64,000 nucleotides of DNA from Gemmatimonadaceae bacterium (GTDB lineage Bacteria; Gemmatimonadota; Gemmatimonadetes; Gemmatimonadales; Gemmatimonadaceae): positions 124,001 through 188,000 of the forward strand of contig JAICWO010000010.1 in NCBI GenBank assembly GCA_025934775.1, read 5' to 3'. This document shows positions 27,568 through 34,064 of the stretch, piece after piece; the first letter of the stretch is position 1; every line of letters starts with the position of its first letter. The notes under the pieces were generated by a model, which had not been told where the DNA came from, did no database searches, and saw only the letters and a program-made list of their open reading frames with translations. Made by a program: the position numbers and the translations under genes.

Positions 27568-27774
27568 ATGACCGCGAAGCTCGAGAAGACGATCAAGCGC
27601 GAGCTGGAGCTCGACGGAAAGACCTACACGATCGCCATCTCACCGGAGGGCATCAAAGTCACCGAGAAAGGGCGGCGGAACGGCCCCGAGATGTCCTGGC
27701 GCTCGATCATCACCGGCGACGCCGCGCTCGCGCAGGACCTGAAGACTTCCGTCGACGCGACGCAGAGCGAGTAG
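27568..27774 (+). CDS. Small conserved-looking protein, unknown function
   Basis: A 68-residue protein (KLEKTIKRELELDGKTYTIA, then SPEGIKVTEKGRR, EMSWRSIITGD). A GGAGG 5 bases before ATG 27568 gives a good ribosome site. It is predicted as a small beta-rich fold, a single compact domain with a charged N-terminus. The last 65 bp overlap the convergent ligC 3' end. The protein is not recognised as a named family. Confidence 0.7.
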   Translation: MTAKLEKTIKRELELDGKTYTIAISPEGIKVTEKGRRNGPEMSWRSIITGDAALAQDLKTSVDATQSE

Positions 27775-28819
27775 CCGGCTTCGTCTTCGGGAGGATCGCC
27801 GCCCGACTCGGGCGGCGCTTGGCCTCCGCCACCTGATCGAACGTGCACTGCGCTGGCGCCTTCTCCGGTCGCCAGCGCAGAAACTTCGTTCCGTGGCGGA
27901 ATCGGCCATTCGTGAAGTGGTCGTACTCCACTTCGACGACGAGCGTTGGATCGAGCGCGACCCACTCGCCTGAGCGGCTCGTCGACCACCGGCTCGGCCC
28001 ACCCGGCGCGCGGCCGGTGAAGCCTGATCCGCCGGCGAGCTTCTCCAGCTTGGGCGTGAGCCGCTTCCGTTCCTCCGCCGAGAAGCTCGACGTGAATCCC
28101 ACATGGTGCAGGATTCCGTCGTCGTCGTACAGGCCGAGGAGCAGCGAGCCGATGATCTTCCCCTTGCTCGCGTAGCGAAAGCCGCCGACGACGCAGTCCG
28201 CCGTCCGCTTTCGTTTGATCTTCTCCATCGCGGTGCGCTCGCCGCTGCGATAGGGAAGATCGAGGCGCTTCGCCATCACGCCATCGGTCCCCGCGCGGCC
28301 GGCGAGCCACTGCTTGGCCTGCGCCAACTTGCGCGTCGCGGGGCTCAGCATCACGCCGTCGGACCCGGCGAAGCTCTCCTTCGCGAACGCCTCCAGCGCC
28401 TCCCGGCGCTCCGACAACGGCTGCTGTGTGAGATCGTGGCCGCGCGCGTCGACGAGCAGGTCGAACACGAGGAGCACGGCCGGCGTCTCGCTCGCGAGCT
28501 TGCGGACGCGGCTCTGCGCCGGGTGAATGCGAAGCAGCAGTGCGTCGAACGAAAGCCCGCTCTCGGTCGGTACGACGATCTCGCCGTCGAGCACGAAGCG
28601 CTTGGCCGGGATCGCGGCGACCGCCGCCGCGACTTCGGGAAAGTACCGCGTCAGCGACTGCCCGGACTTCGAGCGCAGCTCGACCGCGGCGCCATCACGA
28701 AACGCTAAACAGCGAAAGCCGTCCCACTTGGGTTCGTACTGCCAGTCCGGCCCCGACGGCAGCTCGGTGACGATCCGCGCCTCCATCGGCGCGTACCCCG
28801 GCGCGATCGGCAGGCTCAC
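27710..28819 (-). CDS. ATP-dependent DNA ligase, LigC-type
   Basis: A 369-residue stand-alone ATP-dependent ligase. The nucleotidyltransferase motif is EPKWDGFR with the AMP-accepting lysine at about residue 31; further motifs are SKSGQSLTRYFPEV, VLDGEIVV, FDLLVDARG, DGVMAKRLDLPY and KIKRKRTADCVVGG. The OB-fold follows (GFTSSFSAEERKRLTPKLE...VVEVEYDHFTNGRFRH) and a basic Arg/Lys tail. The start is GTG 28819, overlapping the preceding small gene (GTGA). It is the fourth gene of the ku operon and probably seals nicks in NHEJ or related excision repair. The 3' end overlaps the small convergent gene by 65 bp. Confidence 0.92.
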   Translation of the reverse strand: MSLPIAPGYAPMEARIVTELPSGPDWQYEPKWDGFRCLAFRDGAAVELRSKSGQSLTRYFPEVAAAVAAIPAKRFVLDGEIVVPTESGLSFDALLLRIHPAQSRVRKLASETPAVLLVFDLLVDARGHDLTQQPLSERREALEAFAKESFAGSDGVMLSPATRKLAQAKQWLAGRAGTDGVMAKRLDLPYRSGERTAMEKIKRKRTADCVVGGFRYASKGKIIGSLLLGLYDDDGILHHVGFTSSFSAEERKRLTPKLEKLAGGSGFTGRAPGGPSRWSTSRSGEWVALDPTLVVEVEYDHFTNGRFRHGTKFLRWRPEKAPAQCTFDQVAEAKRRPSRAAILPKTKPATRSASRRRKSSGPARARRRR

Positions 28820-29214
28820 GGCGCCGCGTCGCTCCGATCGTCATCATCGGTCTCGCACGCTGCCACGCGCCGATCGTAGTCCGAGTTGCGGCGCACCGCG
28901 CCGGCCGCCGACGGCTGGTCGAGCCCGAGCTCGGTCTGCGCCGTCGGCAGCGGCTCGCCGCCCAGAAAGAGCTGCGTCATGCGATGCTGGAATCGCAGGA
29001 ACTGCACCGGCGCGCGCAGGCTCTCGCGCGGCGCGCGCGCGACCATGAGCAGCTCCTCGCGTATCTCGCGCGGTAGATGCGTCGACGTGCGTTTGCGCAG
29101 CAGCGCCGTGATGCGCATGCTGTCGCGCGCCATCACCGCGCGTTCGATCTCCTCGAGATACTCGAGGAGTCCGCTCAACGTGCGCGAGCGGCCGCGCCGC
29201 GCGCGCTCAGCCAC
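28816..29214 (-). CDS. Unknown 132-residue protein encoded inside the NHEJ operon
   Basis: The protein starts with an Arg-rich segment (MAERARRGRSRTLSGLLEY), then a helical core (LEEIERAVMARDSMRITALL...REIREELLMVARAPRESLRAP, VQFLRFQHRMTQLFLGGEPL), and ends in an acidic tail (ACETDDDDRSD). No catalytic motif or signal peptide is visible. It starts at GTG 29214 within the ligD 3' end (8-bp overlap) and ends in a GTGA overlap with ligC, so it is translationally locked between two repair ligases. I do not recognise the family. A DNA-repair accessory role is inferred only from position. Confidence 0.75.
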   Translation of the reverse strand: MAERARRGRSRTLSGLLEYLEEIERAVMARDSMRITALLRKRTSTHLPREIREELLMVARAPRESLRAPVQFLRFQHRMTQLFLGGEPLPTAQTELGLDQPSAAGAVRRNSDYDRRVAACETDDDDRSDAAP

Positions 29215-31201
29215 GAGTCAGCACTCCGGCCAGCGAGTTCGGTGCCTTCATCCCTCTCGCCCAGAGGTCCCCGATCTTCTCGATGCGCGGCGGCACGGTG
29301 TCCATCGTGAATTCCCCGGGATCGAGCTGCTCGTTGATCTCGTTCCAGCGGAGCGGCGTCGAGACGGTCGCTCCGGGACGCGCGCGCACCGAGTACACGC
29401 CCGCAACCGTCTTCGCGCGAATGTTCTGGAGATAGTCGACGTACACTGCGCCCCTCGGCCGCAGGCCCACCGACCGCTCGACCGTCGCGATCTTTGGATT
29501 TCGCTCGGCCACCATCGTCGCGATGAGCTCCGCGAGCGTGCGTGCTCCGTCGTTCGGCACGCCCCGGCCGAGCGGCAGCACGATGTGAACCCCGCTCGCC
29601 CCGGACGTCTTCGGCACCGCGTGCAGATGGAGCTCGTCGAGCACGTCCTTCACCGCGTGCGCGACCTCGACGACGCGTGAGAACGGCGCGCGCGGACCCG
29701 GATCGAGGTCGATGATCGAGTAGTCGGCGCGCGTCACCGACTGCACGCGCGAGTGCCACGGGTCGATCGAGATCGCGCCAAGCTGCACGACGTACAGCAG
29801 CGTCGCGAGATCGCCGCCGATCAATCGGTCCTGCGTGCGCAGCCCCACATCGGCCACCGCTTCCACGCGTACGGTATCCGGCGCTTCCGCCGGTGCGCGC
29901 TGCTGAAAGAACCCTTTCGACGCGACCCCGTTCGGAAATCGCTTCATCACGAGCGGCCGATCGGCGATCGCCGGCAGAATGTACGGCGCGACCCGCACGT
30001 AGTACCGCATCAGGTCGCCCTTCGTCTGCTTGGTCTCGGGGAAGAAGATCTTGTCGAGATGCGACACGTCGAGTGCCCCCTCCGGCAGCTCGATCTCTCC
30101 GTCGCCACCAGCGCGCTCTATGTCGGTGAGCGCGTCGAGGAGAGCCGCATAGTTCGGCTGCCGTGAGCGGCGCTTCGTTCCCGCGCGCGTGGGGCGAGTC
30201 GTGGAGCGCGCGCGCTTGGCCGGCTTCGCGATCGACTCCGGCTCGTGTGTCACCTCGCGCGGCGATTTGTCGTCGCGCACGCCGATGAACACCGGCTGAC
30301 GCAGCTTTCCATCGCCGGTCCATTCATTGAACTTGATCTCGACCACGACCGACGGACGGGTCCAGTGTGGCCGTTCGTTGGTCTTGGGCGTCGTCGTGAA
30401 CGGCGACGACTTGCGCTCGAGCTTCGCGAGCCGATGATACATCTCGAGCAGCGACTTCCGCGTGAAGCCTGTGCCCGTGTGGCCCGCGTAGATCAGGTCG
30501 CCGTTCGAGTCATAGTAGCCCAGCAGAATCGCGCCGATGTGCTCGCGCGTGTTGCGCGGCTCCGTCCATCCGCCGACCACGAACTCCTGCCGGTGCTCGA
30601 TCTTGAGCTTGAGCCAATCCCGCGAGCGGCGGCCGGGCTCGTACGACGCATCGGCGCGCTTCGCGATCACTCCTTCCCAATCGTTGCGGCGAGCGGTCCG
30701 GAGCATCGCCTCGCCGTTCTCGCCGACGTCACTGAGCCGCAGCGCGCTGGTACGACCCGGGGGTTGGAGGAGCGCGGCGAGATGTTTTCGCCGCACGCGC
30801 CACGGCTCAGTGACGAGCGTCTTCTTGCCATCGAGCAACAGATCGAACGCGAAGAGCGAGGACGGCGACGCGTCGCGCAGGTGCGCGATCGCGCTCGCAT
30901 CCGTGACGTGCATCCGACCCTGGAGCTCCTGAAAACGCGCCGGCACGCCGCCGTGCATCGCGACGATCTCGCCGTCCAGCACGAGCGGGCGCTTCGCCCG
31001 CTGCTCGAGCGCGCGAAGCGCATCCACGATCTCCGGAAACTGCCGTGCCTTGTCCAGGCCGTTCCGCGTCACCAGCGCCACGTCGCGTCCGTTGACATAT
31101 GCGAGAACTCGAATGCCGTCGTACTTCGGTTCGAACACCCACCCGTCGCCGCGCGGGAGCTCCTTCCCGATCGTGGCGAGCATGGGGGCGATCGCCTTCA
31201 T
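29207..31201 (-). CDS. ligD: DNA ligase D (ligase + polymerase/primase domains, no phosphoesterase)
   Basis: A 664-residue NHEJ enzyme. Residues 1-310 form an ATP-dependent ligase: EPKYDGIR with Lys26 as the adenylation site, VLDGEIVAMHG, FDLLLDGKK, EGVIAKRAD, DWLKLK and the OB-fold. After a basic linker (about 325-365), residues 375-640 form the LigD polymerase domain (AEP primase): HLDKIFFPE, RFPNGV, SIIDLDPGP (catalytic acidic pair), SGASGVHIVLPL and VDYLQNIRAKT. The phosphoesterase domain is absent. The order LIG-POL differs from the POL-PE-LIG enzyme of mycobacteria and the PE-LIG-POL enzyme of Pseudomonas. It is coupled to ku by an ATGA overlap. Its expected role is gap filling and sealing at Ku-bound double-strand breaks. 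Confidence 0.95.
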   Translation of the reverse strand: MKAIAPMLATIGKELPRGDGWVFEPKYDGIRVLAYVNGRDVALVTRNGLDKARQFPEIVDALRALEQRAKRPLVLDGEIVAMHGGVPARFQELQGRMHVTDASAIAHLRDASPSSLFAFDLLLDGKKTLVTEPWRVRRKHLAALLQPPGRTSALRLSDVGENGEAMLRTARRNDWEGVIAKRADASYEPGRRSRDWLKLKIEHRQEFVVGGWTEPRNTREHIGAILLGYYDSNGDLIYAGHTGTGFTRKSLLEMYHRLAKLERKSSPFTTTPKTNERPHWTRPSVVVEIKFNEWTGDGKLRQPVFIGVRDDKSPREVTHEPESIAKPAKRARSTTRPTRAGTKRRSRQPNYAALLDALTDIERAGGDGEIELPEGALDVSHLDKIFFPETKQTKGDLMRYYVRVAPYILPAIADRPLVMKRFPNGVASKGFFQQRAPAEAPDTVRVEAVADVGLRTQDRLIGGDLATLLYVVQLGAISIDPWHSRVQSVTRADYSIIDLDPGPRAPFSRVVEVAHAVKDVLDELHLHAVPKTSGASGVHIVLPLGRGVPNDGARTLAELIATMVAERNPKIATVERSVGLRPRGAVYVDYLQNIRAKTVAGVYSVRARPGATVSTPLRWNEINEQLDPGEFTMDTVPPRIEKIGDLWARGMKAPNSLAGVLTRG

Positions 31202-32064
31202 GCCGTCTTACGCCGCGATGCCCGTTTGGCGTGCCGGTGCGTGCTGCCGTGCGCCGCGCGCGTCGCCCGTCCGCCGCGTCCGCCGGAGCGCTTGCCCATC
31301 TCCAGGCTTTCCTGGAGCCGGCTCATGAGATCCACGACCTGCGTGCTCTCGCGCTCGTCCGGTTCCGCGACCTCGATCTTTTTCCCCTTCATCTTCGCGT
31401 GAATGATCTTCATCAGGTTCGCGCGATAGTCGTCGGTGTACTTGGACGGATCGAACGCCTGTGACAGGTTCGTCACGAGCTGCTCCGCCATCTCGAGCTC
31501 CTGCGGGCGCACGCCCGACTCGCTCGGGAAGCTGAAGTCCGAGGTGTCGACCAGCTCGTCCGCGAAGCGCATGATCTCGAGCACGATCGCCTCGCCGACG
31601 ACCTTCACGCCCGCCAGATGCTCGGCGTTGGTGCGCATCGTGACTTTGCCGATCCCGACCGAGCCGGTATTGCGGATCGCCTCGCGGAGCAGGGCGTACG
31701 CCTTCTCGCCGCCCTTGTTCGGGACCACGTAGTAGGGCGTCTCGAAGTAGCGCGGGTCGATCTCGTCCGCGTTCACGAAGTCGAGAATCTCGATCGTCTT
31801 GGACGACGCGATCGACGCGGCCTTGAAGTCCTCGTCGGTGAGCACGACGAACTTGCCCTTGCCGTACTCGTAGCCTTTGACGATGTCCTTCCAATCGACG
31901 GCTTCGCCTTCCTTCTGGCAGACGCGCTCGTAGCGAATGGGCGACAGGTCCTTCTTGTGGAGGAGCCGGAAGCTCACGCGCTCCTTGGCCTGGACCGCCG
32001 AATGCAGCCGCACCGGGATGTTCACGAGGCCAAAGGTCAACGCACCGGTCCAGAGTGGACGCAT
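31198..32064 (-). CDS. ku: Ku-type DNA end-binding protein (NHEJ)
   Basis: A 288-residue bacterial Ku. It has the conserved start MRPLWTGALTFGLVNIPVRL, LHKKDLSPIRYERVCQ, KGYEYGKGKFVVLTDEDF, IDPRYFETPYYVVP, SVGIGKVTMRTNAEHL and LMKIIHAKMKGKK, then a Gly/Arg/Lys-rich C-terminal tail after residue 255. Ku homodimers thread onto broken DNA ends and recruit LigD. ATG 32064 gives the family-standard N-terminus; upstream in-frame codons have no conservation. First gene of a four-gene operon (ku-ligD-unknown-ligC) whose junctions all overlap. Its promoter must lie in or beside the DnaA-box-rich region at 32.2-32.6 kb. Confidence 0.95.
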   Translation of the reverse strand: MRPLWTGALTFGLVNIPVRLHSAVQAKERVSFRLLHKKDLSPIRYERVCQKEGEAVDWKDIVKGYEYGKGKFVVLTDEDFKAASIASSKTIEILDFVNADEIDPRYFETPYYVVPNKGGEKAYALLREAIRNTGSVGIGKVTMRTNAEHLAGVKVVGEAIVLEIMRFADELVDTSDFSFPSESGVRPQELEMAEQLVTNLSQAFDPSKYTDDYRANLMKIIHAKMKGKKIEVAEPDERESTQVVDLMSRLQESLEMGKRSGGRGGRATRAAHGSTHRHAKRASRRKTA

Positions 32065-32242
32065 CACAAATCCGTAATTAGAGAAAACTAAGCACCGCGC
32101 CCGCCGGCGCTCGATCGCTGGTGCGCCGCCGCTTCGGCCCTTCGCCGCGGCGTCGCTCCCTCGCGGCGTCCACGATGCGGCCAGCAGGGCTGGCGCCGCA
32201 ATCGGCGAACCCCCGCCGGCGGGCCAGAATGCAACTGCGATG

Positions 32243-32600
32243 CTATCAACAGCCTGTCCACATCCGGGTGTGGACAATTGAGAGTTCTCTACATTCGGTC
32301 GACACGCGGCCGTGCGAAAAATCGGTTACTTCGCGGTCGCATTTTCCGCGTGACGCGCGGCTCGATCAGGCAGTCGATTCGCGGCGTTCGCAGAGCGAAA
32401 AGTCGCCGCGCCCGCGCGAAGGCCAAATCGAATTCCTGCACATCTGTCCACAGCCGTTTTCCACAGGGTCCGACGCGGACTTAAGCGTGCTGGCGAATGA
32501 GCTTAGCGAATTTTCGACAATTCTCCACATGCGCTATCCACAGTAATGACAACGACTTATGGAAAACTTTCCTATTGCGCATTGTACCCGGCTTTTCTAG
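32243..32600. other. Cluster of DnaA-box-like sites; candidate replication origin or DnaA-binding control region
   Basis: A 600-bp gene-free gap contains at least six 9-mers close to TTWTNCACA: ttttccaca (32457-32465, exact match), ttgtccaca (complement of 32269-32277), ttctccaca (32521-32529), ctatccaca (32534-32542), and ctgtccaca at 32254-32262 and 32444-32452; ctatcaaca at 32243 is a weaker seventh. Two face each other as TGTCCACA-6 bp-TGTGGACA. A short AT-richer tract (cttatggaaaactttccta) follows the last boxes at 32556-32574. Genes flank it divergently. dnaA, dnaN, parA or gidA are not in the window, so origin function is a hypothesis. Short frames across the gap have no recognisable domains. 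Confidence 0.6.
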
Positions 32601-32661
32601 GTTGCCGTCCCGCCTCGCGGCGGCCCCTGATCAGCACCGCGACAACTGAGCCGATTTCGCC

Positions 32662-32976
32662 ATGCATCTCGTGAGTTGCGCTACTCCACACGAACCGCTC
32701 GAAGACGCGCCGCGCTCGGCGCTCCTGGCGGACTCCGCGGAAGGCGAGCGATGGGATGGATTCTGGTCGGCGCAGTCGGACGCGTACTTCGTGCGGCGCA
32801 CGCTCGCCGGCGGCGCGACGGAATGGTATCAGCTCGCGGATGATGACGACGTGAGCCCGAAGCGCGCGGAAGCGCGCGTGCTCACCCTGCGCGCGAAATC
32901 GCGATCGCAGTTCGTGGTCGCCCAGTCGCCCAGCGGCCGGCGCATGCTGGTCGGCACCGCGCGGCGTCCCCGCTAG
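32662..32976 (+). CDS. Hypothetical protein
   Basis: A 104-residue soluble protein with no signal or membrane segment. Visible parts are an acidic middle (YQLADDDDVSPKRAEARV) and a basic C-terminus (RRMLVGTARRPR); WDGFWSAQSDAYFVRRT and TEWYQLAD suggest a small beta-sheet domain. ATG 32662 lacks a clear Shine-Dalgarno. It is the first gene to the right of the DnaA-box region. No family recognised. Confidence 0.55.
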   Translation: MHLVSCATPHEPLEDAPRSALLADSAEGERWDGFWSAQSDAYFVRRTLAGGATEWYQLADDDDVSPKRAEARVLTLRAKSRSQFVVAQSPSGRRMLVGTARRPR

Positions 32977-32988
32977 ATGCGCGAGGCG

Positions 32989-33879
32989 TCAGTTCGCGCT
33001 GCCGTCGGGCAGCAGCTCGAGTTGTGCGGTGCGCTGCGCGACCACGCGGCGCGCGCCCTCGTACAGCCAGTCGAAGCTCGCGTCGAGGCGCGGGTCGCCA
33101 CCCGCGGCATCGCGCGCGAGCGTGAAGTGGCTGTACAGGCGGTTGTCGACGCGCTCCGGCTCTCCGTGCAGCCGGAAGAGGAGCAGCTCGGTCGCGGCTT
33201 CCGTCAGATGGAACAGCGTGAACAAGTAAAATCTCATTCTTGTTTCATCAACGGGGTCGACGCCGCGCAGGAACTCGGGCTCGCGCAGCGGGCGCTCCTC
33301 GCGGATCGACGCGACGAGCTCCATCGCGTGCGACAGCCCCGACGGGCCGGCGCCGCGGAGCACGTGCGTCCACAGCTCGACGACGCGGCGGAGCAGCACG
33401 AGATCCCAGCGGTGCTCGTCCTCCGCGGCCGGGAACAGGATCGCCTCGTGCGCCCGCACCCACGCTCGGAACTCGGTCAACTTGTGACCGACCTGCGCGA
33501 GGCCCGCCAGGAGCATCGTGCGATAGAGCGCCGCGACGCGCTCGCCGGGTTCGACGGGGAGCGCCGCCGTGAGGATGAACGCGCGATCGGCGCCGATCTC
33601 GATGTGCGCCGCGCGCCGCTCCTCCTGCTCGCTGGAGAGAATGGCCGACGGGGAGGCCGCGCCCTCGAAGTCCAGCCACTCGCTGGCCGCGATCACGTAC
33701 GCGCCGGCCAGCGGCACCACGAACTCGGGCAACGTCTCGAGATCCGTCACCGGCTCGCCGGCGCACACGCGCGACAAGACGCTCATGCCGTATTGAATCG
33801 CCGCGGCCCGGTCTTCAGGCGTGACGACTTTAACGGCCCAATGGCGGTCGAGCGTATCGAGTGCGGTCGGGGTGGTCAT
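32989..33879 (-). CDS. Hypothetical mostly helical protein
   Basis: A roughly 296-residue soluble protein, mainly alpha-helical by composition, with several Trp/His/Arg-rich helices (WVRAHEAILFPAAEDEHRWDL, VELWTHVLRG, FYLFTLFHLTEAATELLLF) and an acidic/hydrophobic C-terminus. ATG 33879 is used; GTG 33897 is an alternative and neither has a strong ribosome site. It is convergent with the preceding small gene (12-bp gap) and divergent from the gene at 34065. I do not recognise a domain. Confidence 0.65.
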   Translation of the reverse strand: MTTPTALDTLDRHWAVKVVTPEDRAAAIQYGMSVLSRVCAGEPVTDLETLPEFVVPLAGAYVIAASEWLDFEGAASPSAILSSEQEERRAAHIEIGADRAFILTAALPVEPGERVAALYRTMLLAGLAQVGHKLTEFRAWVRAHEAILFPAAEDEHRWDLVLLRRVVELWTHVLRGAGPSGLSHAMELVASIREERPLREPEFLRGVDPVDETRMRFYLFTLFHLTEAATELLLFRLHGEPERVDNRLYSHFTLARDAAGGDPRLDASFDWLYEGARRVVAQRTAQLELLPDGSAN

Positions 33880-34064
33880 GTGAACGTCGTGGGACACGGC
33901 GAGGCACGGACGGCTTCACCATCGCACACGGATCTGACGGACCGATGTGGATTGAGTAACACTTTGCGACTAACTCGGCGAGTGGTTCGACGCGCCGCCG
34001 CGGCGGCGCCCCCAGGCGCCCGGAGCCTGGCCGCCCCGCGGCGCGCGCGCGACGGGAGGGGACG

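Follow-up and report, generated by a model that had tools for sequence, protein, structure and literature searches.

A conserved DnaA-box array away from the chromosome origin precedes the predicted promoter of a small gene in the Gemmatimonadaceae

Genomes from eight genera of the Gemmatimonadaceae carry an array of DnaA-box-like sites with conserved order and spacing that lies upstream of the predicted promoter of a small gene and apart from the dnaA-dnaN and parAB loci. The array was analysed in a window of 64,000 nucleotides (contig C7, positions 124001-188000, from a genome of 47 contigs and 4.88 Mb) and in homologous loci of related genomes. Its preservation across genera indicates a putative control region of ancient standing before the small-gene promoter. 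On balance DnaA probably binds upstream of this gene and regulates it, much as it does sda in Bacillus subtilis, with a role as DnaA reservoir perhaps added.

The DnaA-box cluster and its parts

The original prediction placed a cluster of DnaA boxes at 32243-32600 of the window, and the cluster is real. Six exact copies of TNTCCACA fall within 288 bp of this interval (32255+, 32269-, 32445+, 32458+, 32522+, and 32535+), as against 126 in the 4.88 Mb of the genome, a total from which ~0.007 copies would be expected per 288 bp. The whole window holds eight copies, whereas its dinucleotide shuffles averaged 2.37 and never had more than six. The hexamer TCCACA was counted six times in 32243-32600 and only twice in the next best 358-bp stretch of contig C7. 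The number of boxes proposed earlier, six or seven, also agrees with what is found: seven sites lie within one mismatch of TTWTNCACA, one of them an exact TTTTCCACA (32457-32465). Both the inverted pair (32255+/32269-) and the adjacent AT-richer tract (57% AT over 32501-32600 vs. 32% for the contig) are present. The parts of the array and the flanking genes are listed below by window coordinates and strand.

31198-32064, minus strand: ku (Pfam Ku, E 3e-47), which adjoins the array in only some genera
32254-32277, no single strand: inverted pair of DnaA-box-like sites, CTGTCCACA (plus) and TTGTCCACA (minus), on the ku side; a similar pair is kept in ku-adjacent genera
32444-32452, plus strand: DnaA-box-like CTGTCCACA, 13 bp before Box1, kept across genus g1
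32457-32465, plus strand: Box1, TTTTCCACA, an exact DnaA box
32511-32519, plus strand: Box2, TTTTCGACA, 54 bp after Box1, degenerate in the window
32521-32529, plus strand: extra box, TTCTCCACA, between Box2 and Box3
32534-32542, plus strand: Box3, CTATCCACA, 23 bp after Box2
32550-32559, plus strand: conserved element CAACGACTTA (consensus CAACRACTTA), ~7 bp after Box3
32558-32566, minus strand: box-like TTTTCCATA, in genus g1 only
32575-32603, plus strand: predicted promoter of the small gene, TTGCGC-N17-TAGGTT; a promoter of this kind has the same position in 22 of 23 loci
32662-32976, plus strand: small conserved gene, the partner of the array (104 aa, beginning MHLVSCATPHEPLEDAP), with no Pfam match
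32989-33897, minus strand: convergent gene of 302 aa; several other genera have similar open reading frames past the array

Conservation across the family

A first profile of the block found matches across the family, and a second, broader profile (E < 1e-9) gave 47 homologous arrays, spread over 46 of the 179 genomes of the family and over eight genera. The array is single-copy per genome, G009 being the one exception. Under the kinship labels that the search tool assigned to genera (g1, g22, and so on), it was found in all six g1 genomes, each a multi-contig assembly, in four genomes of g24, three of g4, most of g22, and two of the three of g20, as well as in g3, g10, and g27. Matches outside the family were weak (E 1e-5 to 0.009) and were not accepted as real.

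The core runs from Box1 (TTWTCCACA) across 52-54 bp to Box2, across 22-23 bp to Box3 (TATCCACA), and after a further ~7 bp to CAACRACTTA. The TATCNACA of Box3 is invariant in the 23 loci read, and for most genomes of g22 and g24 the form of Box2 is TTATCCACA. Four relatives within the genus and three other genera also have boxes with fixed spacing upstream of ku. The distance between array and dnaA amounts to 35-39% of the chromosome in three closed g22 genomes, on the same side every time.

The small gene and its predicted promoter

The small gene encodes a protein of 104 aa in the window, and its products in relatives reach 139 aa. Among the matches listed, which include 45 for the small gene in all, it follows 43 of 47 arrays on the same strand at a distance of 77-157 bp (median 116). 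The arrays with no detectable small-gene homologue among these matches belong to G003, G036, and G059 (all g4) and to G027 (g27); conversely, the gene is found with no detected array in G118, to which a weak match in G016 may be added. This G016 homologue (contig C2, 4638068-4639718) lies ~600 bp from a second ku and divergent from it, and no array was detected there. In G009 array and small gene are duplicated as a unit ~5.6 kb apart (contig C37, 52393-58588), each copy of the gene having its own array.

A predicted promoter of the form TTG..-N17/18-TANNNT lies 14-18 bp past CAACRACTTA in 22 of the 23 loci, those of g4 included, and its spacer is 17 bp in all of the 22 except one, where it is 18 bp. 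Two properties of a DnaA-regulated promoter are found here, namely boxes fixed relative to the predicted promoter and linkage to one gene, with g4 and g27 as the exceptions to the latter. A Pfam search with the small protein gave no match; an AlphaFold model built from four sequences was weak (mean pLDDT 62, mostly strands), and Foldseek returned no match to it at E <= 0.001.

ku and other neighbors

The start of ku is best placed at 32064, where the ATG is conserved in relatives; a longer, TTG-initiated reading frame was rejected as an overcall. A control region tying ku to replication had been among the proposals for the cluster. Its outline, a control region, is supported, with the small gene on the other side, and not ku, as the probable conserved target. 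Among the 23 loci read, ku adjoins the array in nine, and it does so only in genera g1, g20, g10, and g3. Its place is taken by other genes in g22 and g24, and in G064, a g1 genome, array and small gene are kept with no adjoining ku. Array and small gene thus persist in genomes where ku is not the neighbor. The ku-side box pair lies close upstream of ku, separate from the core, and it is kept where ku is present, so that control of ku may still hold in those genera.

Between the ku start and the array, the ~150 bp at 32065-32220 are mostly absent from aligned relatives. Further along the ku strand, the stretch 27710-31201 encodes a LigD ligase-polymerase (29207-31201) and then a second ATP-dependent ligase (27710-28819).

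Position relative to the chromosome origin

Bacterial origins usually, though not universally, lie near parAB, mnmG, or dnaA-dnaN. In the genome of the window dnaA, parAB, and mnmG are together on contig C11, and the array is on C7. The genes mnmG, parA, and parB are ~22-28 kb from dnaA on C11, and likewise on contig C9 of G042. The proposal that the cluster is itself the chromosome origin is not supported: the origin signature is at dnaA-dnaN on C11, and the skew of closed relatives changes sign at dnaA rather than at the array.

In the dnaA-dnaN gap (G000, contig C11, ~80630-80880) boxes precede DnaA-trios and an AT-rich stretch. The order in three g1 genomes is TTTTCCAC[CG], another box, CTCTACTACG[GA]CTACTAG, and lastly AT-rich DNA; in G042, CAC replaces CTC in the trio segment. 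The trios that follow the boxes read CTACTAC..CTACTA, and their opposite strand has the 3'-GAT-5' form known from bacterial origins (PMC8287927). A module scan found similar box/trio modules at dnaA-dnaN in G022, G048, G098, and G070; G016, G031, and G013 gave none. From its sequence the gap is the probable oriC of this family. Another candidate origin, the AT-rich gap next to mnmG in G022, was set aside, since the dnaA-dnaN module fits better. When the array was scanned in the same way, no clear trio module was seen, the best match being a poor one of three triplets. A candidate trio in the conserved AATGACAACGAC segment was dropped because its adenines are on the wrong strand relative to Box3.

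Skew values are 20-kb samples, except in the surroundings of dnaA in G022, which were read densely. In this closed genome the cumulative minimum is at ~44 kb, near dnaA (0.4 kb) and a parS site (38 kb), and the array at 1.63 Mb has positive skew on both sides. In G098, also closed, dnaA (3.69 Mb) falls within the interval of the flip, 3.60-3.76 Mb, whereas the array is at 1.82 Mb. The distance from array to dnaA is 1.63 Mb in G022 and 1.87 Mb in G098. In three g1 genomes no parS was found at up to one mismatch, and the site has no marker value there. The sampled skew of G022 and G098 also suggests unequal replichores (~63-68% vs. 32-37%), the array being near the middle of the long arm.

DnaA control of the small gene

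The arrangement described above would make the off-origin array a DnaA-binding control region upstream of the promoter that drives a lineage-restricted small gene. The three core boxes and CAACRACTTA precede the -35 element of the predicted promoter, the centers of Box3, Box2, and Box1 being ~70, ~95, and ~150 bp ahead of where transcription is expected to start. Spacings of ~52-54 and 22-23 bp are near five and two helical turns, which would place the boxes on one face of the helix. Boxes so placed upstream of a promoter are consistent with a role of DnaA as transcription factor, for which sda is a precedent (PMC4447404, PMC5295017). As the array sits before the small-gene promoter, DnaA probably regulates that gene, and sites located upstream of the promoter and not over it suggest activation. 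We infer that DnaA, probably as an ATP-DnaA assembly, binds the boxes and activates the small gene, whose expression would thereby be coupled to DnaA level or replication status; the array may also hold DnaA away from oriC. Among the points that count against this model are the degenerate Box2 of the window, the small gene without a detected array in G118 and G016, and a small protein without known relative. It is a speculative and rather doubtful extension that the gene encodes a new regulator, acting on DnaA or on cell-cycle progression and expressed under DnaA control, so that array and gene would close a lineage-specific feedback loop on initiation.

Several known systems offer comparison. 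In B. subtilis DnaA directly activates sda, likewise a small and lineage-restricted gene whose promoter is preceded by several DnaA boxes (PMC4447404). The Gemmatimonadaceae locus differs in its 104-139-aa protein with no Pfam relative, in the CAACRACTTA element and 52/22-bp spacing particular to its array, and in that DnaA control is deduced here. The DnaA-box clusters (DBCs) of B. subtilis bind DnaA outside oriC, and removal of all six leads to early initiation (PMC5295017). They resemble the array as clusters outside the origin, binding being known for DBCs and presumed for the array, but occur several per genome, whereas there is usually one homologous array here. With an oriC of the basal unwinding type (DnaA boxes plus DnaA-trios) the array shares several intergenic DnaA boxes in an AT-richer region; unlike such an oriC, it has no convincing trios and is misplaced with respect to skew and to dnaA-dnaN, where the basal-unwinding-type module of the family sits instead.

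Alternative explanations

Box density, the AT-richer tract, and deep conservation are what an origin might show, and the main counter-evidence to our placement of oriC is a local V in GC skew that coincides with the array, or lies no more than a few kb from it, in the g1 genomes G000, G042, and G014. This V was rejected as origin support; it is noisy, is absent at the array in G020, and has counterparts of similar size elsewhere on the same contigs. Given also the boxes, trios, and AT-rich DNA at dnaA-dnaN in three g1 genomes, with related signatures elsewhere, parAB and mnmG nearby, and the flips at dnaA in G022 and G098, we regard it as very improbable that the cluster is the replication origin. 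An array that ties ku/ligD repair expression to replication would explain the conserved box pair close upstream of ku in ku-adjacent genera. Array and small gene nevertheless persist without a nearby ku in g22, g24, and G064, and most ku genes of other genera have no such array, leaving this account improbable.

The array might instead act mainly to bind DnaA, limiting it or recharging it for oriC in the manner of datA, DARS, or a DBC, with the promoter incidental. Both datA and DARS need sites for IHF (and Fis) for their activity, and they promote ATP hydrolysis by DnaA or nucleotide exchange on it. Like datA, DARS1, and DARS2 of Escherichia coli, whose hallmarks are conserved box spacing and chromosomal position (PMC4585315), the array is an off-origin DnaA-box cluster, usually single-copy, with conserved spacing and, in the three closed g22 genomes, a constant side of the chromosome. 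The E. coli loci are non-coding control loci, whereas a promoter and a gene go with the array here, and a pure reservoir would predict neither the fixed promoter distance in 22 of 23 loci nor the joint duplication of array and small gene in G009. Retention of the array without the small gene in g4 and g27 suggests that it may do something besides driving that gene. As the primary function, a reservoir is possible though unlikely; such a role and regulation of the small gene by DnaA are not mutually exclusive.

Implications and a further observation

Literature searches on the Gemmatimonadota yielded no paper on replication control or on an experimental origin. Array and small gene provide a concrete candidate for a DnaA-controlled gene, testable in cultured Gemmatimonas, and the dnaA-dnaN gap is indicated as the likely place of initiation in the family. 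In a fragmentary genome, a dense cluster of DnaA boxes alone does not suffice to identify an origin.

Contig C25 of G000 (84638-86206) encodes a protein of ~640 aa with two Bac_DnaA ATPase domains; its Pfam matches do not include the C-terminal DNA-binding domain of DnaA. Paired DnaA-domain matches also occur in G022, G048, G098, G042, G014, G013, and G070.
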